Below, piece after piece: positions 16,409 to 56,396 of a stretch of DNA of 64,000 nt. Numbering within the stretch: the stretch's first letter is position 1; every line of letters starts with the position of its first letter. The notes under the pieces are model-generated. The model was not told where the DNA came from. It searched no databases and saw only the letters and a program-made list of their open reading frames with translations. The DNA is taken from the NCBI RefSeq assembly GCF_003583365.1, contig NZ_QXED01000002.1, forward strand, positions 682,001-746,000, written 5' to 3'. The position numbers were made by a program, and so were the translations under genes. Source of the DNA: Fibrisoma montanum (GTDB taxonomy: Bacteria > Bacteroidota > Bacteroidia > Cytophagales > Spirosomataceae).

Positions 16409-16601
16409 AAGCGAGTGGGATATGGGCCGCCGGAATGATGAACACATACCTAACGCTTGAACAACGGCCCTCAGCGCATTTGAGCCCGCAAGTTAGTCAA
16501 AAATTGGGGGGCGGGCTGGAAACTGGCGTATTTGTTGTTGAAGTCAGTTGGGTTTAGTAGGTTGCTTTCTGTTCATATCTCACCTTTTCACACACAATTT
16601 T

Positions 16602-18488
16602 ATGCAGATTTTCTACCGTTTCTTGTTCATCGCTGGCCTGGTGCTGGCGGGGGGTACTACGTCATCAGCGCAGGACAATTTGATTATTACAGGGCCTACT
16701 TCTGCAACGCCTGGTGTTAGAAATACCGTTTTTGGCTACCGGGCGGGGATAAGTATCACAGATGGGTTTAATAATGCCTTTTTTGGAAATAATGTCGGTT
16801 CGGTTAATACAACTGGTATTCAAAATGCTTTTTTTGGAAGTAATGCAGGTTCTGCAAACACTATCGGTTTTCGAAACGCCTTCTTTGGAAATAACGTAGG
16901 TTCTGCTAATGTAAGCGGGTACCAAAATGCCTATTTTGGAAGTGATGCGGGGATGTCAATTAGGGATGGTTACCAAAACACATTTATAGGTTCATCCGCA
17001 GGTGCACTTAGTATTACTGGATTTCAAAACGTATATGTCGGGTCAACCGCTGGTTATTTTAACAGAGGTTCTGAGAACGTGTATGTTGGGTCAAATACAG
17101 GCGCATTGGGTACACTGGCAACAGGGAACGTTTTAATGGGAACTGGTGCAGGCTCCTCTGTTAATGCCTCTCACAATGTGATGATAGGATATTCATCTGG
17201 CCGAGGCAATGTAATGGGCACAAATAATGTCTATATGGGAGCATTTGCTGCACAAAGCGCTAATGGTAATAGCTCTGTTATGATAGGAGACAGTACAGGT
17301 TTTAAAACCGGAGTTGGGATGTTCAACGGGGTCTCTGGGAACGTTTTTATCGGTAGCCGATCAGGGTTAAACAACGTTTCCGGAATACAAAATACATTCT
17401 TAGGAACACAATCCGGCTACAACACCAACGCTAATGCCAACACCTTCCTGGGCTATATGGCTGGGCGTACCAACACCACCGGCCAGTTTAATACGTTCAT
17501 CGGCGTACAAACCGGACTTAGCAACACGACCGGTTCCTCCAACTACATGATGGGTACCAACGCCGGGTTAAGCAACACCACCGGCTCAGGCAACTACTTC
17601 CTAGGGGATAACGCCGGGGGCGGCAACACGACCGGCGGCTTCAACGTGTACCTGGGTTCAAATGCCGGCAATGGCACGAACGTCAACGGCGACAACAACG
17701 TAGCGATTGGCTTTGAGAGCGGTCGAAGCAACACGAATGGTACTACGAATCTGTTTTTGGGCTTCCGGGCGGATGCCAACGCGGCCGGACTGACCAACGC
17801 GACGGCCATCGGCCCGAACGCCAAAGTGGGCGTCAGTAATGCGGTGGTGCTGGGCAATAGTGCCAACGTGGGTATCGGTACCAGTATGCCCACGGCTCGC
17901 TTACACATTGCCAGTGGAGTGCCCAATCAATCGGGACTGCGGCTGGAAGAGTTGAATGATGATGACCCGGCAGTCAAAAGCACCAACAAGTTCCTAACCG
18001 TCGACAGCAACGGAAACGTCATTCTGGCTACTTACGCCAGTAGTGGGCGCGAAGCCGCCGTAGAGAGTCTTTGGCAGCGCAACGGGACGTTTCTGCAAAG
18101 TACGAAGGGCGAAGCGGTTATCATCGGCTCCAATGTGAGCCGGACGCCGGCCGGTTACCGCCTGTACGTGCAGGAAGGCATTCTAACGGAGAAGGTCAAG
18201 GTGGCCGTCAGGAACACCGCGGAGTGGAGCGACCATGTGTTTGCGCCCACCTATAAGCTGGCCCCGTTAGTCGAGGTCGAACAGCATATCCAGCGGCATG
18301 GCCAGCTGCCGGGTGTGCCCTCGGCGAAGCAGATGGTCGAGCAGGGCAATGATCTGCACCGGACCGATGCCAAGCTGCTCGAAAAGATTGAAGAATTGAC
18401 TTTGTATATGATTGACCAGCAAAAGCAGTTAGACCAACTCAAGGCTGAGAATCAGCAGATTAAACAGCGGTTGGCCAGTCGGCGGTAA
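16602..18488 (+). CDS. secreted 17-residue-repeat beta-roll protein, array member 1
   Basis: About 628 residues. A signal peptide (MQIFYRFLFIAG ... TSSAQ) leads into more than 20 tandem repeats of 17 residues with the pattern N-x-(F/Y)-(F/I/M)-G-x-x-(A/S)-G and a G near position 15, for example NAFFGSNAGSANTIGFR. This resembles YadA-head or tail-fibre beta-rolls. Residues about 430-470 form a TARLHIASG linker. The C-terminal module reads LTEKVKVAV, EWSDHVFAPTYKL, LPGVPSA and LLEKIEELTLY and ends in a coiled coil rich in Gln and Lys. I infer a trimeric surface or secreted fibre. The first half is more AT-rich than the second, as if built from different sources. The start was moved from 16548 to the Met of the signal peptide. 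Confidence 0.8.
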   Translation: MQIFYRFLFIAGLVLAGGTTSSAQDNLIITGPTSATPGVRNTVFGYRAGISITDGFNNAFFGNNVGSVNTTGIQNAFFGSNAGSANTIGFRNAFFGNNVGSANVSGYQNAYFGSDAGMSIRDGYQNTFIGSSAGALSITGFQNVYVGSTAGYFNRGSENVYVGSNTGALGTLATGNVLMGTGAGSSVNASHNVMIGYSSGRGNVMGTNNVYMGAFAAQSANGNSSVMIGDSTGFKTGVGMFNGVSGNVFIGSRSGLNNVSGIQNTFLGTQSGYNTNANANTFLGYMAGRTNTTGQFNTFIGVQTGLSNTTGSSNYMMGTNAGLSNTTGSGNYFLGDNAGGGNTTGGFNVYLGSNAGNGTNVNGDNNVAIGFESGRSNTNGTTNLFLGFRADANAAGLTNATAIGPNAKVGVSNAVVLGNSANVGIGTSMPTARLHIASGVPNQSGLRLEELNDDDPAVKSTNKFLTVDSNGNVILATYASSGREAAVESLWQRNGTFLQSTKGEAVIIGSNVSRTPAGYRLYVQEGILTEKVKVAVRNTAEWSDHVFAPTYKLAPLVEVEQHIQRHGQLPGVPSAKQMVEQGNDLHRTDAKLLEKIEELTLYMIDQQKQLDQLKAENQQIKQRLASRR

Positions 18489-18516
18489 AAGGATAGGTAA
18501 AAAGATTGTGAATGTA

Positions 18517-18602
18517 GTGACAACCGTTTGGCCGTAGCCGGGCGGTTGTCTATTTTGCCGACAAAATCACATCTTTTCACATATTCACTTACACAAGTAC
18601 AT
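18517..18602 (+). repeat. intergenic direct repeat, copy A
   Basis: About 85 bases of terminator hairpin plus leader, almost identical to 20524-20609. Identity runs on into the signal-peptide codons of array members 2 and 3, which marks a duplication unit spanning the gene boundary. Confidence 0.8.
18519..18556 (+). terminator. terminator after array member 1 (repeat copy A)
   Basis: A stem of 8 GC/AT pairs (GACAACCG with CGGTTGTC) extended by three G-T pairs and GGC/GCC, with loop CGTA, then TATTTT. Near-identical to the hairpin at 20526. Confidence 0.75.
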
Positions 18603-20494
18603 GCATCTTTTTTACCGTAACTTATTAGCCGCTGGTCTGGTGCTGGCGGGCACAGGCGCGTCATGGGCGCAGAATAATTTAGTAATTACTGGCCCTGTAT
18701 CAGCCACTCCGAGTAAAAATAATACCTTAATTGGATTACAGGCTGGGGTTAATATTCTAACAGGGCCTGTCAATTCCGTAATTGGTAGCGAAAACACATT
18801 TATTGGCAATCAGGCAGGCCGAGATAACGGACAGGGTTACCATAATACATTTGTCGGCAGTTTGGCGGGAGAGAGTAACACAAGTGGTAATTACAATACG
18901 TTTGTAGGCAAGGATGCTGGCAGCAATACTACCACAGGTGGGGCAAATACATTCATGGGTACTACCTCTGGCTCGATAAACACTACCGGAAACGGCAATT
19001 CATTTTTTGGGTATCAATCAGGTGGTACCAACCTTACGGGTGTTTTTAACACATTTATGGGGAGTAGTGCCGGTCTATATAATTATTTAGGTAATTACAA
19101 CACATTTCAGGGAAGCTCTGCAGGGCAGTATACTCACTCGTACGGGATCTAAAAATACATTTATAGGTTATTATTCTGGATTTAATAACGATTTTGGCAA
19201 TAGCAACGTTGCCATAGGTGCTTTTGCAGGATATGGTGTGTTTGGGCCAACATCGAATGGATTCTGGGGACAATCATTAGGTAATAATAATGTAATGATT
19301 GGCGACTCAGCGGGTTTTAAACAGCTAAATATTAATGGTAATGTGTTAATTGGTAGCAAATCAGGTGCAGCTAATCAAACCGGTATTCAAAACACATTTT
19401 TAGGTTTCCAGACTGGTTTCAGCAACACAGCCAGTGCCAACACCTTCCTAGGCTATATGGCTGGGCGTACCAACACCACCGGCCAGTTCAATACGTTCAT
19501 CGGCGTACAAACCGGACTGAACAACACGACCGGTTCCTCTAACTATATGCTGGGCACCAACGCTGGTTTAAGCAATACGACGGGCACGGGCAACTACTTC
19601 CTGGGCGATAATGCGGGCGGTGGCAATACCGGCGGTAGCTTCAACATCTACATCGGGGCCAACGCCGGTAACGGCACGAACGTCAACGGTGATAACAACC
19701 TGGCCATCGGCTTTGAAGCAGGCCGGGCCAACGTAGCCGGCATCAATAACACATTCCTGGGTTTCCGGGCTGATGCCGGAGCCAATGGGCTGAGTAATGC
19801 CACGGCCATCGGCAACGACGCCAAAGTTAACGTATCCAACGCAGTGGTGCTGGGCAACGGTGCCAATGTGGGCATCGGCACCTCCTCGCCCACAGTACGT
19901 TTGCAGATCAACACGGGTGTAGCCAACCAGTCGGGCGTGCGCTTAGAAAACCTCACCAGCGCATCGCCGGCCAGTGCCTTGAACCAGACTAAGTTCTTAA
20001 CCGTCGATGGCTCAGGCAACGTCATCCTGGCCAGTACCACCAGTGGAGGGCGGGTAGCGGCTGAAGCCGAGAGTCTGTGGCAGCGCAATGGCCGCTACCT
20101 GACCAGCCAGGAAAACGATGCGGTCATCATTGGTAGCGGGGTGAGCAAGACACCTTCAGATTATAACCTCTTTGTGAGCAAAGGTATCCTGACCGAGAAG
20201 GTCAAGGTAGCCGTGAAGAACACCTCAGAGTGGAGCGACTACGTCTTCGAGAAAGGCTATGCGCTCAAGCCCTTAGCCGAGGTGGAACACTATGTTGAAC
20301 AGCACAAGCACCTGCCGGGTGTACCCTCGGCTGAGCAGGTGGTCAGCGAAGGCATGGACGTAGCGAAGATGAATGCCAAGCTGCTCGAAAAGATTGAAGA
20401 GCTGACCTTGTATATGATTGACCAGCAAAAGCAGTTAGATCAACTCAAGGCTGAGAATCAGCAGATCAAGCAGCGGCTGGCCGATCGGCGGTAA
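18601..20494 (+). pseudogene. secreted 17-residue-repeat beta-roll protein, array member 2, frameshifted
   Basis: Two open frames make one gene. The first (18601-19152) has a signal peptide (MHLFYRNLLAAGLVLAG ... ASWAQ) and about eight 17-residue repeats, then stops. The repeat pattern resumes at once in the +1 frame: skipping one G of the GGG at 19144-19146 gives AGQYTHSYGSKNTFIGYYSG without a break and continues to 20494. The C-terminal module is the alternative version of the array (SGVSKTPSDYNLFVSKG, DYVFEKGYAL, SAEQVVSEGMDVAKMN), with the same final coiled coil as member 1. It is either a recent one-base insertion, a sequencing error or, less likely, a programmed shift. If repaired it would encode about 630 residues. 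Confidence 0.75.
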
Positions 20495-20523
20495 GCGGAA
20501 TACGTAAAAATATGGTGAATCTA

Positions 20524-20609
20524 GTGACAACCGTTTGGCCGTAGCCGGGCGGTTGTCTATTTTACCGACAAAATCACATCTTTTCACCTATTCACTTCTA
20601 CAATTACAT
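20524..20609 (+). repeat. intergenic direct repeat, copy B
   Basis: Near-identical to 18517-18602, holding the same terminator hairpin and leader upstream of array member 3. Confidence 0.8.
20526..20563 (+). terminator. terminator after array member 2 (repeat copy B)
   Basis: Same hairpin as at 18519 (GACAACCG with CGGTTGTC, loop CGTA), followed by TATTTT. Confidence 0.75.
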
Positions 20610-22155
20610 GCACCTTTTTTACGGTAACTTATTAGCCGCTGGTCTGGTGCTGGCGGGCTCAGGCGCTTCGTGGGCGCAGACAAATCTGGTCATCACCAGC
20701 CCTGCTTCGGCTACGCCAGGTAATACAAACACGCTGATTGGCCTAAAGGCAGGAAATTCAGGTATGACTGCAGCGTCCAACACTTTTCTGGGTTGGGAGA
20801 CTGGTAGGGACAATGGCACTGGAAGTTACAACACCTTTTTAGGGGCTTCTAGTGGTCAGGAAAATACGACCGGCAGCGAGAACGTGTTTTTGGGGGCATC
20901 AAGTGGGCCGGACAACACCACTGGCAGCCGCAACACGTTTTTAGGCTATCAGGCTGGCTATTTGAATAAGTCAGGCAGCGATAATGTGTTCATTGGACCG
21001 CAGGCTGGCGGATTCATTGGCTCGGGTAACCAGAATACGATTATAGGTTCAGGAGCTGGCGCTGTATCATCAGGTAGTGCCAGTGCAAATACCCTGGTGG
21101 GGTATCGGGCAGGTTTAAATACCACCGGCCAGTTTAATACGTTCATCGGCGTACAAACCGGACTCAACAACACGACCGGTTCCTCCAACTACATGATGGG
21201 TACCAACGCCGGGCTGGCCAACAGCACCGGCTCGGGCAACTACTTCTTGGGTGATAACGCTGGCGGAGGAAACACGGGTGGTTCATTCAATATCTATATC
21301 GGCGCCAACGCCGGCAACGGCACCAACGTTAACGGCGATAACAACCTGGCCATTGGCTTCGAGGCCGGTCGGGCCAACGTAGCGGGCCTCAATAACACTT
21401 TCATCGGCTTCCGCGCCGACGCCGGAGCCAACGGCTTGAGCAATGCCACGGCCATTGGCAACAATGCCCGGGTGAACGTCAGCAACGCCGTAGTGCTGGG
21501 CAATGGAGCCAATGTAGGCATCGGCACCTCATCACCTACCGTGCGCTTGCAGATCAACACAGGCGTAGCCAACCAGTCGGGGGTGCGGCTGGAGAACCTC
21601 ACCAGCGCATCGCCGGCGACAGCTCTAAACCAGACCAAGTTCCTGACCGTCGATGGTTCTGGAAATGTAATCTTAGCCAGCACCACCAGTGGAGGGCGGA
21701 TAGCCGCTGAAGCCGAGAGTCTGTGGCAGCGCAAGGGCCGGTATCTGACTAGTCAGGCCGACAACGCCGTTATCATCGGCTCCAACGTGAGCCGGACGCC
21801 GGCCGGTTACCGCTTGTACGTGCAGGAGGGCATCCTGACCGAGAAGGTCAAGGTGGCTGTGAAGAACACCGGGGAGTGGAGCGACCATGTGTTTGCGCCT
21901 ACGTATAAGCTGGTTCCGTTAGCCGAGGTCGAGCAGCACATCCAGCGGCATGGCCACTTGCCAGGGGTGCCCTCGGCGAAGCAGATGGTCGAGCAGGGCA
22001 ATGATCTGCACCGGACCGATGCCAAGCTGCTCGAAAAGATTGAGGAGCTGACCTTGTATGTACTAAAGCAGCAGAAAGAACTGGAGTCGATTAAACAGCA
22101 GAATCAACAAATGAAGCAAGAGGTTTCGGATCTAAGAGCTCGTTTGGGTCATTAA
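20608..22155 (+). CDS. secreted 17-residue-repeat beta-roll protein, array member 3
   Basis: 515 residues: signal peptide (MHLFYGNLLAAGLVLAG ... ASWAQ) nearly identical to member 2, then about 16 repeats of the N..(F/I)G..AG type (residues about 45-290). A linker with VRLQINTGVANQSG is followed by the shared C-terminal module with the member-1 alleles (SNVSRTPAGYRLYVQEG, HVFAPTYKL, SAKQMVEQGNDLHRTD). The coiled-coil tail differs (LKQQKELESIKQQNQQ) and ends in DLRARLGH. A 167-base tract (21691-21857) is identical to 24980-25146 in the phosphatase fusion. Function unknown; a fibre-like surface protein is inferred. Confidence 0.8.
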   Translation: MHLFYGNLLAAGLVLAGSGASWAQTNLVITSPASATPGNTNTLIGLKAGNSGMTAASNTFLGWETGRDNGTGSYNTFLGASSGQENTTGSENVFLGASSGPDNTTGSRNTFLGYQAGYLNKSGSDNVFIGPQAGGFIGSGNQNTIIGSGAGAVSSGSASANTLVGYRAGLNTTGQFNTFIGVQTGLNNTTGSSNYMMGTNAGLANSTGSGNYFLGDNAGGGNTGGSFNIYIGANAGNGTNVNGDNNLAIGFEAGRANVAGLNNTFIGFRADAGANGLSNATAIGNNARVNVSNAVVLGNGANVGIGTSSPTVRLQINTGVANQSGVRLENLTSASPATALNQTKFLTVDGSGNVILASTTSGGRIAAEAESLWQRKGRYLTSQADNAVIIGSNVSRTPAGYRLYVQEGILTEKVKVAVKNTGEWSDHVFAPTYKLVPLAEVEQHIQRHGHLPGVPSAKQMVEQGNDLHRTDAKLLEKIEELTLYVLKQQKELESIKQQNQQMKQEVSDLRARLGH

Positions 22156-22179
22156 CAGAACAACTGCCATATCTGACTA

Positions 22180-22204
22180 CGAAGGCTACCACTGGTAGCC
22201 TTCG
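22180..22204 (+). terminator. hairpin after array member 3
   Basis: A perfect 11-bp stem (CGAAGGCTACC with GGTAGCCTTCG), loop ACT, followed by TGCGTTT. The T-run is weak, but the place is right for a terminator. Confidence 0.6.
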
Positions 22205-22357
22205 TGCGTTTAAGGAAGGCTCTAATCTCCTACCTACAAACCGTTTACTAAAAATACTAGGTATAAATACTTATAAAATAGTGAGATGATCGAATTAGAA
22301 AAAATAAAGTTTTAAATTAATTGTATAATTCAAATAATTAATATAAACATATCAATC

Positions 22358-25300
22358 ATGAAGAAGTTACTACTTTTTCCCTTACTGCTAGTGATTGGAT
22401 GGTCTAAGGGTATAGCACAGCCTACCAGTCAGACAGTGGTTGCCGTCGGGGCAAACTGGAAGTTCCTGAACGAAAACGGCGACCAGGGAACTGCCTGGCG
22501 AAACGAAACCTTCAACGACGCAAGCTGGTCGTCGGGTCCGTCGCCCCTGGGTTATTCGCCTAACAATGAGGATGCGGCCAGTACGACAATCTGCAATGGC
22601 TGTACCGGATGTAGCTGTTCAAATTGCGCGCCTGATTGCAATACCAAGCGGATTACGACGTATTTCAGGCATCAGTTTACGCTCAGCGATCCGTCTGGTA
22701 CGTTCTTGATGCGGTATCAGCGCGACGATGGTATTGTAATCTACGTGAACGGCGTTGAGGTGCACCGCGAAAATTTGCCTGCTCCTCCCGCTACGATTAC
22801 GTATTCAACTACAGCTACGGCCATCCCCAGCAATGCCGAGGAACTGGCCTGGGTATCCGTGCCTCAGGCGGCCCTGAATGGACGATTTAAAGCGGGTAAT
22901 AACCTCATTGCCGTCGAAATTCACCAGGCAGGCTCCGGAAGTTCGGATATTCGCTTCAGCATGGAGGTTGCACGGTCTGGCCCCCTGGTTCGAGGGCCTT
23001 ACCTGCAAATGGGAACCCCCACGGACATGACGCTGCGCTGGCGAACGTCAACGGCGTCTACAGGACGGATTCGCTACTGGACATCAGAACCCGGCAGCTT
23101 GACGAGCAATGCCGACGAATCGGCGGCTACCACTGAACATGAGAAACGTCTGACGGGGTTGTCGCCTTCAACCCGGTACAATTATTCAATCGGGACTACA
23201 GATGGGGGAGTCCTGCAGGCTTCCGCTGATAATTACTTCATAACCCCTCCTCAGCCGGGAACAGCCCGCAAAACCCGAATCTGGTCGTTGGGCGATTTTG
23301 GAACCGGAAACGCCCGGCAAGTTAACGTCAAAAACGGCTTTAAGACGTTTGCTGGTACTGATTACATCGACATGTGGCTTTGGTTGGGCGATAACGCTTA
23401 TAGTATCACTGGCACCAAAGACGGGCAGGATTCGGTGTATCAGCTCAACGTGTTCAATATATACGGTCCGGATCGCTTCATGAAACAAACCCCTTTTTAT
23501 GCAACGCCCGGCAACCATGACTACTACAGTACCGAAGCCCGGCGGGTAGATCATGATATTGACTACTTTGATATTGTCAGTAATTTCAGGGGTGGTTCGG
23601 CTAACGACAAGGAAGAGTATTATTCCTTCAATCACGGCAACATTCACATCGTTAGTCTGGATAGTTATGGGTATGAAAGTGGGCAGGGAACGGCTATATT
23701 TTCGCCAAATGGACCTCAGATGACCTGGCTGAAAACTGATCTGGCAGCCGCGAAGTCAAATCCCAGTATCGCGTGGGTGATTGTTTTTTTTCACCATCCG
23801 CCCTACACAAAAGGAACACACGACTCCGATACGGAAGCTGATCTGATCAATATTCGCCAGCAGGTGGTGCCCATACTCGACCAGTATAACGTCGACCTCG
23901 TTTTGGCAGGACACAGCCATGTGTATGAACGGACTAAGCTGATGAAAGGCCATACCGGATTATCAAATACGTTTAACCCCAGCGTTCATAACGCCCCGCC
24001 AGCCAATAACGAGCCAACCCCTAATATGTATTATAAAAGCCGAACGGCTTCGACTAACGAAGGGATTATGTATATCGTAAATGGTACAGGAGGGGCGGCC
24101 GGAAAAGGATCCATTCCACAACACCCGGCCATGGATATTTCACTTGATGAAGGCGGCTCTCTGTATCTGGAAATAGATGGAAACCAGCTTACCGGAAAAT
24201 TTATTGCAATTGACGGCACAACAAAAGACCAGTTTGCGATCGTCAAAACCGGAGCTGTGGCTAACTCTACCAACACACTGCTGGGTGAAGCAGCCGGGAG
24301 CGCTTTGGCAACTAGCAGTCAGCAGAATACGATGGTCGGCTTCCAGGCTGGTTTAAATACGACTTCATCCGCTAATCTGATGCTGGGCTACCGGGCTGGT
24401 TTAAGCAACACGTCCGGCCAATTCAACAGCTTCATCGGGGTACAGGCGGGGCTGAACAACACGACCGGCTCATCGAACTACTTCTTCGGTACCAACTCGG
24501 GGCTGGCTAATATCACCGGCACGGGCAACTACTTCCTGGGCGACAACGCTGGGGGGGGCAACACCGGCGGTTCATTCAATATCTATATCGGCGCTAATTC
24601 GGGCAATGGGGCCAACGTCAATGGCGACAACAACCTGGCCGTGGGCTTTGAGGCTGGCCGGGCCAACGTAGCCGGCATTAACAACACCTTCATCGGCTTC
24701 CGCGCCGACGCCGGAGCCAACGGCTTGAGCAATGCCACGGCCATTGGCAACAACGCCAAGGTCAACGTATCAAACGCCGTGGTGCTGGGCAATGGGGCCA
24801 ACGTGGGTATTGGCAACTCAGCCCCCACGGCCAGACTGCACGTAACAACGGGCGTAGCCAACCAATCGGGTGTGCGCTTAGAAAACCTGACTAGTGCATC
24901 GCCGGCCAGTGCGCTGAACCAGACCAAGTTCCTCACTGTAGATGGATCGGGCAACCTCATCCTGGCCAGCACCACCAGCGGAGGGCGGATAGCCGCTGAA
25001 GCCGAGAGTCTGTGGCAGCGCAAGGGCCGGTATCTGACTAGTCAGGCCGACAACGCCGTTATCATCGGCTCCAACGTGAGCCGGACGCCGGCCGGTTACC
25101 GCTTGTACGTGCAGGAGGGCATCCTGACCGAGAAGGTCAAGGTGGCCGTGAAGAACACTGCGGAGTGGAGCGACCATGTGTTTGCGCCTACGTATAAGCT
25201 GGTTCCGTTAGCCGAGGTCGAGCAGCACATCCAGCGGCATGGCCACTTGCCGGGCGTGCCCTCGGCGAAGCAGATGGTCGAGCAGGGCAATGATCTGCAC

Positions 25301-25432
25301 CGGACCGATGCCAAGCTGCTCGAAAAGATCGAGGAACTGACCCTGTACGTAATCGAACTCAGCCGAAAAAACCAGGAACTGGAACGTAAAGTGGAGCAAT
25401 TGCAGCAGGCTAAAGCGCCTACACAACACTAA
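22358..25432 (+). CDS. purple-acid-phosphatase-like metallophosphoesterase fused to 17-residue beta-roll repeats, array member 4
   Basis: 1,024 residues. The signal peptide is MKKLLLFPLLLVIGWSKGIAQ. Residues about 25-205 form a jelly-roll-like domain with a cysteine cluster (CNGCTGCSCSNC). Residues about 210-295 resemble the fibronectin-like N-domain of purple acid phosphatases (RGPYLQMGTPTDMTLRW). Residues about 305-630 hold all five metal motifs: GDFG, GDNAY, GNHD, FFHHPPY and GHSHVYER. About 640-830 is the same 17-residue repeat body as its neighbours, then the shared C-terminal module (SAKQMVEQGNDLHRTD) and a coiled coil. It should be an exported phosphomonoesterase or phosphodiesterase on a beta-roll stalk. 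The substrate is unknown. The C-terminal half nearly matches member 3, so the enzyme part was probably joined by recombination. Confidence 0.9.
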   Translation: MKKLLLFPLLLVIGWSKGIAQPTSQTVVAVGANWKFLNENGDQGTAWRNETFNDASWSSGPSPLGYSPNNEDAASTTICNGCTGCSCSNCAPDCNTKRITTYFRHQFTLSDPSGTFLMRYQRDDGIVIYVNGVEVHRENLPAPPATITYSTTATAIPSNAEELAWVSVPQAALNGRFKAGNNLIAVEIHQAGSGSSDIRFSMEVARSGPLVRGPYLQMGTPTDMTLRWRTSTASTGRIRYWTSEPGSLTSNADESAATTEHEKRLTGLSPSTRYNYSIGTTDGGVLQASADNYFITPPQPGTARKTRIWSLGDFGTGNARQVNVKNGFKTFAGTDYIDMWLWLGDNAYSITGTKDGQDSVYQLNVFNIYGPDRFMKQTPFYATPGNHDYYSTEARRVDHDIDYFDIVSNFRGGSANDKEEYYSFNHGNIHIVSLDSYGYESGQGTAIFSPNGPQMTWLKTDLAAAKSNPSIAWVIVFFHHPPYTKGTHDSDTEADLINIRQQVVPILDQYNVDLVLAGHSHVYERTKLMKGHTGLSNTFNPSVHNAPPANNEPTPNMYYKSRTASTNEGIMYIVNGTGGAAGKGSIPQHPAMDISLDEGGSLYLEIDGNQLTGKFIAIDGTTKDQFAIVKTGAVANSTNTLLGEAAGSALATSSQQNTMVGFQAGLNTTSSANLMLGYRAGLSNTSGQFNSFIGVQAGLNNTTGSSNYFFGTNSGLANITGTGNYFLGDNAGGGNTGGSFNIYIGANSGNGANVNGDNNLAVGFEAGRANVAGINNTFIGFRADAGANGLSNATAIGNNAKVNVSNAVVLGNGANVGIGNSAPTARLHVTTGVANQSGVRLENLTSASPASALNQTKFLTVDGSGNLILASTTSGGRIAAEAESLWQRKGRYLTSQADNAVIIGSNVSRTPAGYRLYVQEGILTEKVKVAVKNTAEWSDHVFAPTYKLVPLAEVEQHIQRHGHLPGVPSAKQMVEQGNDLHRTDAKLLEKIEELTLYVIELSRKNQELERKVEQLQQAKAPTQH

Positions 25433-25456
25433 CTTACCGAATAATTACTTTCGAAG

Positions 25457-25487
25457 AAAACCGCCTGGGACTGACAGGCGGTTTTTT
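25457..25487 (+). terminator. terminator after the phosphatase fusion
   Basis: A perfect 11-bp stem (AAAACCGCCTG with CAGGCGGTTTT), 7-base loop and continued T-run, 24 bases after the stop. Confidence 0.88.
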
Positions 25488-25529
25488 ACTTTTAGGTCAG
25501 TACTTAACCATTCATACTACCACTTATTT

Positions 25530-27272
25530 ATGCGTAAAACTTTCTACTCCTTCCCGACTGCATTAGTCGGACTAACCTTGCTGTTGGTAGGCTCAGATGC
25601 GCTGGCTCAGGACAACATCGTAATGACTTCGCCAACCTCGGCGACTCCCGGAAACAATAACGTAATTCTTGGCAACGACGCCGGCAACGGGTCCATGACG
25701 GCCGGATATACGGTTTTGATCGGGCGCTCGGCGGGCAAGAACATGACCGTTGGTAGTTATTCAACGTTTATTGGCGGACAAGCTGGACTGTCCAATACCA
25801 TCGGTACATACAATACGTTTCTGGGGTATTTTGCCGGGGTATCCAACTCGGCGGGTAATTACAATACCTTTTTGGGGACTCAGGCTGGTCGATTTACAAC
25901 CGTTGGGCGGGAAAACGTGTTCGATGGAGCCCTGGCCGGCTTCAACAACCGGACCGGTAACGATAATACGTTTGTAGGCTATCAGGCAGGCTACGGGGGC
26001 AACAACGCTAGCGGTTCCAGCAACGTGGCGGTTGGAATGCGGGCTGCATTCAGCCTCGTAACAGGTCGCAACAACGTGATCATTGGCGATAGCGCCGGCG
26101 CAAACACGCTGGCCAGCAACAACGTAATGATTGGTAGCAAGGCTGGCTACGTTGGAACGACGGGTGTGCAGAACACCCTGGTTGGCTATAATGCCGGCTA
26201 CAACAACAACGGCTCGGCCAACCTGTTCGTAGGCTACCGGGCGGGCTTTAACAACACGTCCGGTCAGTTCAACTCCTTCCTGGGTGTGCAGGCCGGTCTG
26301 AACAACACCACCGGCTCGTCGAACTACTTCTTCGGCACCAACTCGGGTCTGGCTAACACGTCCGGGTCGGGTAACTACTTCCTGGGCGATAACGCCGGGG
26401 GCGGCAACACCGGCGGTTCGTTCAACATCTATATCGGTGCCAATTCCGGCAATGGAACGGATGTCAACGGCGACAACAACCTGGCCATCGGTTTTGAGGC
26501 CGGTCGGGCCAACGTAGCCGGCATCAACAACACCTTTGTGGGTTTCCGGGCTGATGCCGGAGCTAATGGCCTTACCAACGCCACGGCCATTGGCAACAAC
26601 GCCAAAGTGAACGTATCCAATGCACTGGTACTGGGCAATGGGGCCAATGTGGGTATCGGCAGCTCAGCGCCCACAGCGCGGCTGCACGTAACGACAGGTG
26701 TCGCTAACGAGTCGGGATTGCGGCTGGAGAACCTGACCAGCGTATCACCGGCCGGAACGAGTACCAACAAATTTCTCACTGTCGATGCCTCCGGTAACGT
26801 CGTCCTGGCCAGCTACGCCAGCGGAGGGCGGGAAGCGGCTGTTGAAAGCCTGTGGCAGCGGAATGGCCGGTATCTGACTAGTCAGGCCGACAACGCCGTT
26901 ATCATTGGCAGCGGAGTCAGCCGCACCCCATCTGACTACAATCTGTTTGTCTCAAAGGGCATCCTGACCGAGAAGGTCAAGGTGGCCGTGAAAAACACTG
27001 CGGAGTGGAGTGATCACGTGTTTGCGCCTACGTATAAGCTGGCTCCGTTAGCCGAGGTCGAGCAGCACATCCAGCGGCATGGCCACCTGCCGGGCGTGCC
27101 TTCAGCGCAGGATGTGGTGAAAGAAGGCATAGATATGGCTAAGATGGATGCCAAGCTGCTCGAAAAGATTGAAGAAACAACACTGTATCTGCTGCAATTG
27201 AAAAAGGAGGTAGACCTGTTACGCGACGAAAATCGTCAGCTACGGCAGGAGATCAATCAGTTGAAGAAGTAA
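25530..27272 (+). CDS. secreted 17-residue-repeat beta-roll protein, array member 5
   Basis: 580 residues: signal peptide (MRKTFYSFPTALVGLTLLLVG ... ALAQ), about 19 repeats such as NTFLGYFAGVSNSAGNY, the LHVTTGVANESG linker and the C-terminal module. That module is a hybrid: SGVSRTPSDYNLFVSKG as in member 2, then HVFAPTYKLAPLAEVEQHIQRHG as in members 1, 3 and 4, then its own SAQDVVKEGIDMAKMD. The final coiled coil (LLQLKKEVDLLRDENRQL) also differs. This patchwork is direct evidence of segment exchange. The role is inferred to be the same as for the other members. Confidence 0.8.
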   Translation: MRKTFYSFPTALVGLTLLLVGSDALAQDNIVMTSPTSATPGNNNVILGNDAGNGSMTAGYTVLIGRSAGKNMTVGSYSTFIGGQAGLSNTIGTYNTFLGYFAGVSNSAGNYNTFLGTQAGRFTTVGRENVFDGALAGFNNRTGNDNTFVGYQAGYGGNNASGSSNVAVGMRAAFSLVTGRNNVIIGDSAGANTLASNNVMIGSKAGYVGTTGVQNTLVGYNAGYNNNGSANLFVGYRAGFNNTSGQFNSFLGVQAGLNNTTGSSNYFFGTNSGLANTSGSGNYFLGDNAGGGNTGGSFNIYIGANSGNGTDVNGDNNLAIGFEAGRANVAGINNTFVGFRADAGANGLTNATAIGNNAKVNVSNALVLGNGANVGIGSSAPTARLHVTTGVANESGLRLENLTSVSPAGTSTNKFLTVDASGNVVLASYASGGREAAVESLWQRNGRYLTSQADNAVIIGSGVSRTPSDYNLFVSKGILTEKVKVAVKNTAEWSDHVFAPTYKLAPLAEVEQHIQRHGHLPGVPSAQDVVKEGIDMAKMDAKLLEKIEETTLYLLQLKKEVDLLRDENRQLRQEINQLKK

Positions 27273-53592: not shown

Positions 53593-54189
53593 TTAAAATT
53601 TGTAGCCAATATTGAATCCAATGATTGGAATAACACTTATTCCTGTAAACTTGGTTAAGGCAACCTGCCCTGACGCAACCAAACGCCTTGTTACCGTATG
53701 TGAATAGGTTGCTTTTGCATGAAACCCAGCATCAAGTGTTTTTACGTTATTGACATCAGCTATGATATTTGTTACTTCGCCATTGGGAGTTAGCGTGTAG
53801 TCAATTCTTTGATATGTTTTGTCAGTTCTGTGCCACAGGGAGGGCCCCAGACCAATTGTTACGAGGTTATTATTTGTACGAATTGGTGTAAATGCCAGAG
53901 TTAAATCGCCAGTAATACGCCTTCTAAATTCACCGTTTATGTAGTAATCATTTAAAATATTGATATGACTGTTGCTCTCAAAATAACCGGACGTTACAGA
54001 CAGGGCCAGTCTATAATCTTTAATGAACCGAGTGTATGTAAGCTGATAATGGGGGCCAGTTGCATCAGGAGCATCTAATTTCAAATAATTCACTCCAAGC
54101 GATACCAAATTGTTAGGCGCATCGGTTAATGTTGACTGCGCTTTTGCACATACAGAAAGTGTCAATAACAAGAACAAAAATTTTTTCAT
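53593..54189 (-). CDS. small outer-membrane beta-barrel-like protein
   Basis: 198 residues: signal peptide MKKFLFLLLTLSVCAKAQ, then alternating strands (VSLGVNYLKL, YQLTYTRFIKDYRLALSV, LTLAFTPIRTNNNLVTIGLG) ending in VIPIIGFNIGYKF with a C-terminal Phe. This is typical of an 8-stranded outer-membrane barrel. The DNA is clearly more AT-rich than the surroundings, which suggests acquisition. Its leader is duplicated about 0.9 kb upstream next to a truncated start of a paralogue. Function unknown. Confidence 0.72.
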   Translation of the reverse strand: MKKFLFLLLTLSVCAKAQSTLTDAPNNLVSLGVNYLKLDAPDATGPHYQLTYTRFIKDYRLALSVTSGYFESNSHINILNDYYINGEFRRRITGDLTLAFTPIRTNNNLVTIGLGPSLWHRTDKTYQRIDYTLTPNGEVTNIIADVNNVKTLDAGFHAKATYSHTVTRRLVASGQVALTKFTGISVIPIIGFNIGYKF

Positions 54190-54455
54190 AAGTTGAGGAA
54201 ATAGAACAAGTTGCTGTTAATGAGTAACGATTGATTGATTATCTATGTGGTGTTAGACTTACTGACCTTATAAAAGAGCAATAAAATAACGAATAACTCG
54301 AAACGATAAGCTGGTCTCTATCAAGAACTGCTGCTCTGGACGTTGCCCGAGGCATTCACAAGGGCCAAAGAAAGGTGAAAAGTACAAAAAAAGCATTGTC
54401 TAAAATCTTGGCAAAAGTTGTGTTTTGTGACTATTTTTATGTTAAGAGAATAAAT
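54163..54455 (-). repeat. leader direct repeat, copy 1
   Basis: First codons plus about 265 upstream bases of the barrel gene. Matches 55087-55380 over nearly the whole length, with long identical blocks around AAACGATAAGCTGG and CTGCTCTGGACG and a small indel. Confidence 0.75.
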
Positions 54456-54503
54456 ATAGAATGCCTATAATTATCACGTCGGATAGGTCTTTAAAATTTA
54501 CTA

Positions 54504-55034
54504 TTATACTACTGGATGATTTCTCAAAGTTCTAGTCATTAGGGATATGTTTAAAGCACTGTAACCGATTAACATAACTGGCAACAGGTATTTGAAATAG
54601 AGGGCTAACGAATAGCTATCTATTATGTATTTGTGCCAATAGCTATTGAACGAATAGATAGGAAACTCGACTAGCAAGTATCGGATAGATTGGGTGAAAG
54701 GAATGAAAATTAAAAAGGCAGTTAGTAGTGCAGGCAAGAAACTAAGTTGATAAAGAAGCAATGACTTCCAAGTTAGGCTATCGAATGCAGGATCGACCCA
54801 ACGATGGATTCGGTTTATTAATAACGCTAGGACGAAGATTGTTACAAGTTCGGGCAGTATAGTGTTCCTAACTAATAGACCCAAGTAAGGTAGAACACCA
54901 CCACTGTCCTTGACAAAATTCCACTTAACCTCGCTAGCAACCCCCCAAGTTACAGCCTCGACTAACACTAGAAAGATCAGTAGAACAATAACACCATTGA
55001 CGAAAAGGATACGAATATCTCGAAAAGTAGTCAT
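54504..55034 (-). CDS. four-helix membrane protein, function unknown
   Basis: 176 residues with four hydrophobic segments (FVNGVIVLLIFLVLVEAV, ILPELVTIFVLALLI, LSFLPALLTAFLIFIPF, YLLPVMLIGYSALNISL). The N-terminal MTTFRDIRILFVNG is cytoplasmic-like. It resembles the membrane half of LytTR-type regulators of Cytophagales, but no DNA-binding domain follows; the frame ends at TRTLRNHPVV. It may be a truncated regulator or an independent membrane protein. The DNA is AT-rich. It lies between two copies of a duplicated leader. Confidence 0.55.
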   Translation of the reverse strand: MTTFRDIRILFVNGVIVLLIFLVLVEAVTWGVASEVKWNFVKDSGGVLPYLGLLVRNTILPELVTIFVLALLINRIHRWVDPAFDSLTWKSLLLYQLSFLPALLTAFLIFIPFTQSIRYLLVEFPIYSFNSYWHKYIIDSYSLALYFKYLLPVMLIGYSALNISLMTRTLRNHPVV

Positions 55035-55086
55035 GATATAGGTTGTTATATAAGTGGCGTGGCTGTTGCAAAAGTCTGGAAAGTCC

Positions 55087-55380
55087 CAATAGCAAGAACA
55101 AAAATTTTTTCATAAGTTGAGAAGACAGAACAAGTTGCTGTCAATGAGTAACGATTGGTTAATTGTCAATGTAGTGTTCTTTTTGTGGTGTTAGACTTAC
55201 TGACCTTACAAAAGAGTAATGAAATAACGAATAACTCAAAACGATAAGCTGGTCTCTATCAAGAACTGCTGCTCTGGACGTTGCGTAGCATTCACAAGGG
55301 CTAAGTAAAGGTATAAAGTATAAAAAACAGTGTTTAAAAAAGTAGTGTTTTGTAACTCAGATTATGTTATGAAATAAATG
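55087..55380 (-). repeat. leader direct repeat, copy 2, with truncated paralogue start
   Basis: Copy of 54163-54455. It includes the start and first nine codons (MKKFLFLLL) of a paralogue of the barrel gene, after which similarity ends and the frame runs into the leader of the membrane-protein gene. Confidence 0.75.
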
Positions 55381-55460
55381 TCGGAAACTGAAAAGTTACG
55401 TTTATCTAGTCAGCATAATAAAGTACAATTAAGACCTCTATATATAAGCTACATAGTTCG

Positions 55461-55814
55461 TTAACTTTTTCGTCCTTTGTATTTAGATAAATATCCTTCA
55501 TTGCCTTCATGCTCTAAATTTTCCCTATACTTTTTTTCAAAGACTTCAACCGGAATGTCCTTAATGTTCAAAACGTTAACTGCTAATTCGAGATAAGTTA
55601 GTCCAATTTTTGTTAACACTTGATAGGATACTAATACCATCATTCTGTGCCATTCGTTATACTGTTCCCTTCTTTCAACCTCTACTATGTATTCAATCTC
55701 TCTAAAATCATCACGCAATGAAATGATGAAAGATTTTTTACTGTTTCCATATTCTAAATAGTATTGTTCCTTCCAGAGAGTCTTAATTGGGTGAAAAATA
55801 TCTTCAAAATACAT
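55461..55814 (-). CDS. hypothetical protein
   Basis: 117 residues, charged and mostly helical in appearance, no signal peptide or membrane segment. The C-terminus is basic (YLSKYKGRKS). No family recognised. The DNA is the most AT-rich coding DNA in the window, which suggests transfer. It stands between the duplicated leader and the GNAT gene, all on the minus strand. Confidence 0.5.
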   Translation of the reverse strand: MYFEDIFHPIKTLWKEQYYLEYGNSKKSFIISLRDDFREIEYIVEVERREQYNEWHRMMVLVSYQVLTKIGLTYLELAVNVLNIKDIPVEVFEKKYRENLEHEGNEGYLSKYKGRKS

Positions 55815-55868
55815 ATCTAAGACCTTCAGTTCTATATTGATCCCTTTTGTTGTACAAGTGGCAATATG

Positions 55869-56396
55869 TTAATCAACCTCAGTTTGAAAACTTTCAGGAT
55901 CTACCTCGAATATATACTCAAGACCGTCAATATCATCCAGTTGTTCGCCTTTGTGTACAAATCCAAAAGGGCGAATTGTCGCTAATGAAGCCACATTATC
56001 AGGACGAATCGTTGCTCGAACAACCCTAATTTCGGGCTCTGAACTAGCTTGCTTGAGCAAATCGCGTAGCATTGACTTTGCATAGCCTTGGCCTCGGTGA
56101 GCGGGTACTACTGAGTAAGCAACCTCAACCATACCCACTTGGTCGGGCGGACCATGAAATCCAGCATGACCTACCACCTCACCGTTCGCCATAACGATCC
56201 GTGCTATCCAATCCAAGGTGCGAGAGTCCTGACGGAATTGGTTAAGTCTGTTGTTCCATCGTCGAACAGCGTCATCAGTAATAAAATAAGGGCCAAGTTT
56301 AGCACCTACTAATGTACTTGCCCTCTGTAGATCTCGATTGATCAGGGCCTGTAAAGCTTCTTCAGTGAACTTGATCCAAGATAGCTGGTGAGTCAT
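55869..56396 (-). CDS. GNAT family N-acetyltransferase
   Basis: 175 residues. The acetyl-CoA-binding motif is VVPAHRGQGYAKSMLRDLL, with the preceding strand VGMVEVAYSV and the following ATIRPDNVASLATIRPFGF, as in RimJ/RimL-like acetyltransferases. It transfers acetyl from acetyl-CoA to an amine. The acceptor is unknown. Composition is intermediate, at the right edge of the AT-rich patch. A 13-bp hairpin lies 40 bases upstream of its start. Confidence 0.85.
   Translation of the reverse strand: MTHQLSWIKFTEEALQALINRDLQRASTLVGAKLGPYFITDDAVRRWNNRLNQFRQDSRTLDWIARIVMANGEVVGHAGFHGPPDQVGMVEVAYSVVPAHRGQGYAKSMLRDLLKQASSEPEIRVVRATIRPDNVASLATIRPFGFVHKGEQLDDIDGLEYIFEVDPESFQTEVD

Follow-up and report, generated by a model that had tools for sequence, protein, structure and literature searches.

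A purple acid phosphatase fused to a repeat-stalk fibre module in Fibrisoma montanum

The gene at 22358-25432 of the stretch analysed here (the window, 64,000 nucleotides of Fibrisoma montanum contig NZ_QXED01000002.1) reads, by its sequence, as a signal-peptide-like start, an N-terminal domain, a purple acid phosphatase (PAP), a repeat stalk and a C-terminal domain (CT) in one frame. With moderate confidence, we propose that its product is a secreted PAP displayed on a fibre, which would release phosphate near the surface. A preliminary description, made from the DNA letters, had reported one intact gene for a phosphatase plus repeats, and this was confirmed (a single 1024-aa frame, motifs in order, no internal stop). 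Its layout was right for the PAP and the repeats but overlooked the CT end of about 150 aa (aa ~870-1020), and it did not note that the module stands in place of a secretion tag or that it also carries a second enzyme family.

22358-25432, + strand: PAP-fibre fusion gene (single ATG frame, 1024 aa, without internal stop)
22358-22417, + strand: putative signal-peptide-like N terminus, aa 1-20 (sequence read by eye)
22430-22969, + strand: N-terminal beta-rich, jelly-roll-like domain, aa 25-204 (structure model, relatives)
22592-22639, + strand: six-cysteine loop, aa 79-94 (sequence; low confidence in the structure model)
23000-23227, + strand: Pur_ac_phosph_N domain, fibronectin-like, aa 215-290 (Pfam)
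23276-23926, + strand: Metallophos catalytic domain, aa 307-523 (Pfam)
23291-23302, + strand: PAP motif I GDFG, aa 312-315 (sequence)
23387-23401, + strand: PAP motif II GDNAY, aa 344-348 (sequence)
23510-23521, + strand: PAP motif III GNHD, aa 385-388 (sequence)
23786-23806, + strand: PAP motif IV FFHHPPY, aa 477-483 (sequence)
23909-23932, + strand: PAP motif V GHSHVYER, aa 518-525 (sequence)
24251-24283, + strand: fusion junction, similar in the genes of Spirosoma G255 and MAG LF-bin-320 (sequence comparison)
24272-24847, + strand: repeat stalk with a 17-residue period and 8 regular rungs, aa ~639-830 (simple pattern, structure model)
24965-25417, + strand: CT, aa ~870-1020 (found in 20 fibre genes of the same genome, including the PAP gene)
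25310-25411, + strand: long predicted helix, coiled-coil-like, aa 985-1018 (structure model)

Domains of the fusion protein

By each sequence and fold test that was run, the enzyme part is a purple acid phosphatase, whose activity is predicted. In Pfam, cut-offs were passed by Metallophos over aa 307-523 (E 1.2e-14) and by Pur_ac_phosph_N over aa 215-290 (E 6.7e-9), all 15 matches in a sequence search of the PDB were PAPs (best 5.6e-12), and plant PAPs ranked first when the full-length model (mean pLDDT 71.8) was searched with Foldseek (E 4.3e-19). Membership of the PAPs was judged by PF16656 and PF00149 past cut-off together with the PAP fold, both of which were found, and by five metal-ligand motifs, which are present at aa 312, 344, 385, 477-483 and 518. 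This list of motifs is that of the preliminary description, which had called all five intact (GDFG, GDNAY, GNHD, FFHHPPY, GHSHVYER), and each was located in the translated frame. The hallmarks of PAPs are a dinuclear Fe(III)-M(II) centre, a purple colour and acid activity. For a non-plant PAP from soil, Pho18, phytase activity is reported (PMC6355987).

The domain that precedes the PAP had been described as a Cys-rich jelly-roll, which agrees with six cysteines at aa 79-94 within a beta-rich, jelly-roll-like domain, the loop itself being modelled with low confidence. This domain (aa 25-204) gave no match in Pfam and no sequence match in the PDB, and related domains lie N- or C-terminal to the PAP in some relatives. 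In the stalk (aa ~639-830, about 190 aa), the fraction of matching residues reaches 0.30 at lag 17, versus 0.06-0.17 at the other lags from 8 to 24, and a simple pattern counts 8 regular rungs, versus 13, 15 and 19 in three unsplit neighbours. The earlier claim that about 190 residues of repeats resemble those of the neighbours holds at the DNA level, as nt 2024-2994 of the gene are 87% identical (974 columns) to the fibre gene at 20608-22155. CT is strongly conserved among fibre genes. The model of the stalk and CT module is poor (pLDDT 57, single chain) and found no PDB match below E 0.001 in Foldseek, so we make no claim about its fold; the other fibre genes of the genome (19 genes, 20 sequences, one being split) yielded a single YadA_head match in Pfam. 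In genome G024 (loci L206 and L207), a CT-like ending follows a segment that by eye resembles the chaperone domain Peptidase_S74; the ending may thus be a separable module.

Genomic setting and recurrence of the fusion

The PAP gene lies within a tandem array of fibre genes that spans 16548-27272, and the genome carries 20 CT-fibre genes including it, in 9 clusters by our grouping. Elements of the array around the PAP gene are as follows.

16548-18488, + strand: plain fibre paralogue
18601-20494, + strand: plain fibre paralogue in two frames, 18601-19152 and 19091-20494, which overlap at 19091-19152 (ORF list, sequence)
20608-22155, + strand: plain fibre paralogue that may have donated the module end through gene conversion (DNA comparison)
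22179-22205, no strand: inverted repeat between the gene at 20608-22155 and the PAP gene (by eye)
25455-25487, + strand: terminator-like hairpin 3' of the PAP gene (hairpins of the region are no more numerous than in shuffles)
25530-27272, + strand: plain fibre paralogue

The split paralogue at 18601-20494 may be a pseudogene, a sequencing error or a phase switch. Given the inverted repeat before it and the hairpin after it, the PAP gene may be transcribed alone; promoter- and terminator-like elements around it are not above the counts in shuffled sequence. Neighbours of the array include a glycosyltransferase, a GH130 and two SusC/SusD pairs, and the region beside it looks like one for polysaccharide use. 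The 13 non-fibre window genes scanned (2 of them without any match) included neither a phosphate-related gene nor a virion gene. GC content is 0.354 at 54001-56000 of the window, versus 0.472-0.591 in the remaining 2-kb steps.

Of 222 genomes of the family that were searched with the PAP, 170 gave matches at E <= 1e-60; 79 loci were named from a scan that found 190 relatives, and the fetched loci among the matches listed held 153 PAP frames, or 124 after removal of duplicates. The domain-architecture search that the preliminary description had suggested (PAP plus the C-terminal module) was run on these, and 6 of the 124 distinct frames are fused to CT: the window gene and those of Spirosoma G255, Spirosoma MAG LF-bin-320 (its 5' end lost at a contig end), S. 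terrae (G257), G230 and G231. Two of these assemblies consist of a single contig (G230 and G231) and that of G255 of two. At the DNA level, one unbroken alignment (73.7%) joins the window gene to its G255 counterpart over nt 58-2458 and crosses the junction, which lies near nt 1915. The peptides encoded at the junction resemble one another in the window gene and those of G255 and MAG LF-bin-320, three genomes from two genera with PAP identities of 78-79%.

A misassembly across recombining repeats had been named in advance as the finding that would overturn the fusion. The genome does offer an opening for an artefact that merges two genes, as the module end is repeated within it, with a longest exact repeat of 167 bp (window 24980-25146) shared by the PAP gene and the gene at 20608-22155. 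However, that repeat sits 3' of the junction, PAP plus CT module recurs in five further assemblies, of which two consist of a single contig, and the DNA match to the G255 gene runs through the junction. We therefore reject misassembly for the architecture and consider an artefact extremely improbable.

A chance fusion by recombination among the tandem fibre repeats, kept temporarily without benefit, would account for the small number of fused frames (6 of 124) and draws on an array that seems to recombine, because the CT end is nearly identical to that of the upstream paralogue. Compared with the G255 gene, identity falls from 78% (PAP) through 73% (stalk) to 52% (CT), whereas nt 2024-2994 share 87% with the upstream paralogue, including an exact stretch of 167 bp; gene conversion within the array is the simplest reading of the likeness of the module ends. 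Against a chance event stand the junction common to three genomes of two genera, a probable second origin (see below) and low dN/dS. Relative to the G255 gene, substitution rates indicate that the fused gene is under purifying selection, with dN/dS of 0.15/1.68 in the N-terminal domain, 0.22/1.49 in the stalk and 0.40/1.51 in CT, and a dN of 0.13 in the PAP domain, where dS was not computable. A fusion without benefit is thus largely refuted, and we regard it as very unlikely.

A tree was built from 70 PAP domains out of the 124, and in it the six fusions fall into two groups, which needs two changes, both forced by well-supported branches; one fused group is supported at 91/89, which is under the starred level, and two clade supports in all lie under it. 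The second fused group is without the N-terminal domain and has a different region between PAP and stalk. Most simply, judging from this tree, the fusion is common to one Fibrisoma/Spirosoma clade, and a second PAP lineage (the S. terrae group) would have gained the module separately. In Fibrisoma limi (G001), a search for PAP and CT found a PAP in a frame of 443 aa and a single CT frame of 611 aa, but no gene that fuses the two.

Sorting signals and other partners of the module

Among the tails of the 124 PAP frames, 17 are shorter than 40 aa (a contig end truncates one of them); the remaining 107, with the 6 fused ones included and some ending at a locus edge, were scanned at E <= 0.01, and 77 match the type A sorting domain of the type IX secretion system (T9SS; TIGR04183), 7 a 3-coathanger family and 3 a type C signal. 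Five of the six fused tails, scanned singly, gave no T9SS match up to E 1; the remaining one, L097, is a near-copy of L096 and was covered by the pooled scan only. The window protein and its tail likewise gave no match to type A, B or C sorting domains in Pfam and NCBIfam. By sequence, the fused protein is not predicted to be T9SS cargo. The system itself is present in the genome, since SprA, our marker of the translocon, is found at 2279 bits and the type A domain matches 63 times at E <= 0.001, with 61 of these past cut-off. Because 77 of 107 tails are tagged and the five fused tails scanned singly are without a match, the fibre stands where most relatives keep the tag. SprA occurs in all 39 CT-positive genomes (of 247) versus 190/247 overall (hypergeometric 1.3e-5), to which we give little weight because kinship confounds it: of the 57 SprA-negative genomes, 17 of the 20 listed are of one family.

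The module carries a second enzyme. A CT search in ten genomes found, in six Spirosoma genomes, CT frames of 1403-1503 aa with an Exo_endo_phos-type enzyme (L197-L202). Three were scanned with Pfam, and DUF5689 was found in all three; Exo_endo_phos itself matched past cut-off in two, and the third had no such match. The enzyme regions of the other five are 69-75% identical to that of G255, which, searched against 222 genomes, has matches at E <= 1e-60 in 54, the six fused ones being the best. No CT was found in ten fetched unfused relatives, one of which (L210) is cut by the locus end. In a pooled scan of 15 tails (9 unfused, 6 fused), 9 match TIGR04183, a count not split by tail, and 5 of the 6 fused tails, scanned singly, had no TIGR04183 match. 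The SDHNP motif is kept in 4 of the 6 fused enzymes; two are without it, one of these also without GIHA. In G255, this gene lies within an array of plain fibres, as the PAP gene does in the window, and 4 of the 6 genomes also have the PAP fusion. All the CT frames listed for 39 genomes that exceed ~950 aa were inspected, a survey that smaller enzymes would escape outside the F. montanum genome; it found PAP, the Exo_endo_phos type and three fibres that by eye are without an enzyme. Since the same module bears a second phosphoester-cleaving family, phosphorus scavenging is suggested.

The replacement of the tag in two enzyme families, together with the strong conservation of CT, would also be expected if the module were chiefly an alternative sorting device that replaces the T9SS tag, with a stalk geometry that serves no further purpose and a PAP that acts like its T9SS-secreted relatives. 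However, both the six PAP fusions and those of the Exo_endo_phos type have a repeat stalk, its dN/dS is low, and plain fibres without an enzyme are far commoner. We hold this alternative to be possible, though somewhat unlikely.

A protein of about 180 aa often adjoins the fibre genes. Four members in the F. montanum genome match T9SS type A and the others were assigned by likeness. Examples beside plain CT-fibre genes, in loci of our set, are listed here.

L189, 9507-10049: small T9SS-cargo-like protein
L190, 8335-8904: small T9SS-cargo-like protein
L191, 5770-6288: small T9SS-cargo-like protein
L192, 7788-8333: small T9SS-cargo-like protein
L203, 6058-6702: small T9SS-cargo-like protein

We counted 33 short-frame members in 25 genomes (24 genomes with some match), of which 25 have a CT-fibre gene of the same orientation 13-163 bp away (22 of these 25 being downstream of it) and 8 lie elsewhere; as five of the 33 were seeds, 20 of the 28 non-seed members agree. 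None of the 25 fibre-adjoining members (25 genomes) is beside an enzyme-headed fibre, all being next to plain fibres. The small protein is a possible partner for export or anchoring of the fibre. A broader and rather doubtful proposal is a display chassis coupled to the T9SS, in which tagless fibres would be exported and anchored in trans by the ~180-aa cargo and on which the Spirosoma group would have mounted at least two phosphoester-cleaving families for phosphorus scavenging.

Proposed function and comparison with known systems

For a secreted PAP displayed on a fibre, we envisage three chains that would wind around one another along the stalk and the C-terminal helix and present three phosphatase heads at the N-terminal end of the trimer. 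The CT end would trimerise and anchor the fibre outside the cell, the beta-rich N-terminal domain would perhaps bind a polymer that bears the substrate, and the heads would free phosphate from organic phosphate close to the surface. As to passage of the outer membrane, neither a sorting signal nor a barrel was found in the fused protein. If this is true, Bacteroidota own a modular natural enzyme-display fibre that can substitute for the usual T9SS tag and that, on the simplest account, was taken up twice for PAP and, in addition, for an Exo_endo_phos-type enzyme; export of proteins without the tag would become testable, and the fibre would offer a ready scaffold for multivalent enzyme display.

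Among the papers listed by the literature searches, judged by title and abstract opening, no phosphatase of this layout was seen, as the preliminary description had supposed. Two-domain plant-type PAPs (PF16656 plus PF00149; kidney bean 1KBP, wheat phytase 6GIT) have the catalytic fold, the fibronectin-like N domain and the five motifs in common with the Fibrisoma protein, which adds the Cys-looped N-terminal domain and the C-terminal fibre. Bacteroidota PAPs with a T9SS type A tag are homologous enzymes, mostly of the same bacterial family and ~41-60% identical in the unfused matches listed, whereas the Fibrisoma PAP has the fibre module in place of a detected type A domain. A Riemerella metallophosphoesterase is listed as a T9SS effector in a review (PMC10202324).

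Phage tail fibres and spikes have similar repeat segments, whereas the fused protein has a signal-peptide-like start and no virion gene among the neighbours scanned. The proposed analogy with tail spikes bearing enzymatic tips is less apt: the module is matched by no more than 2 phage records, at best over 38% of its length, and Peptidase_S74 is absent among its Pfam matches. A prophage tail spike is thus unsupported, the phage matches being partial and the 13 non-fibre window genes scanned holding no virion gene. In IMG/VR, 34 loci match the module, four of them (L219-L222, in three records) over nearly its whole length; these may be mis-called host regions. The fibre might instead be a phage-derived adhesin whose PAP modifies a phosphorylated surface polymer of a neighbouring cell, which would make the protein an adhesin with an enzymatic function and not an enzyme for nutrition. 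The module repeats resemble phage virion and tail-spike families, the IMG/VR loci point the same way, three viral fold matches fall below E 0.001 (from a poor model), and chimeric fibres of Bdellovibrio serve prey recognition according to PMC10769870. As no phage record covers 80% of the module and the scanned neighbours are free of virion genes, we judge an enzymatic adhesin unlikely and retain the surface-displayed, phosphate-releasing PAP.

Trimeric autotransporter adhesins such as YadA, whose repeat has 14 residues, have an N-terminal head, a repeat roll (a weak, sub-threshold YadA_head match) and a C-terminal helix in common with the fusion, which differs in its 17-residue repeat and its enzyme as head, and whose module gave no YadA_anchor match in a Pfam scan up to E 10. 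The order of head, repeat stalk and C-terminal end is presumably closer to such an autotransporter than to a tail spike. Mosaic adhesive trimers of Bdellovibrio have a conserved domain of ~130 aa at the N terminus, after the signal peptide. They are closest in spirit: as described in PMC10769870, they form a secreted family of chimeric fibres with exchangeable modules in one bacterium, 21 there compared with 20 CT genes here. By their description (PMC10769870), they are adhesins with variable binding domains at the C terminus, whereas the Fibrisoma protein has its enzyme at the N terminus and a different C-terminal domain.
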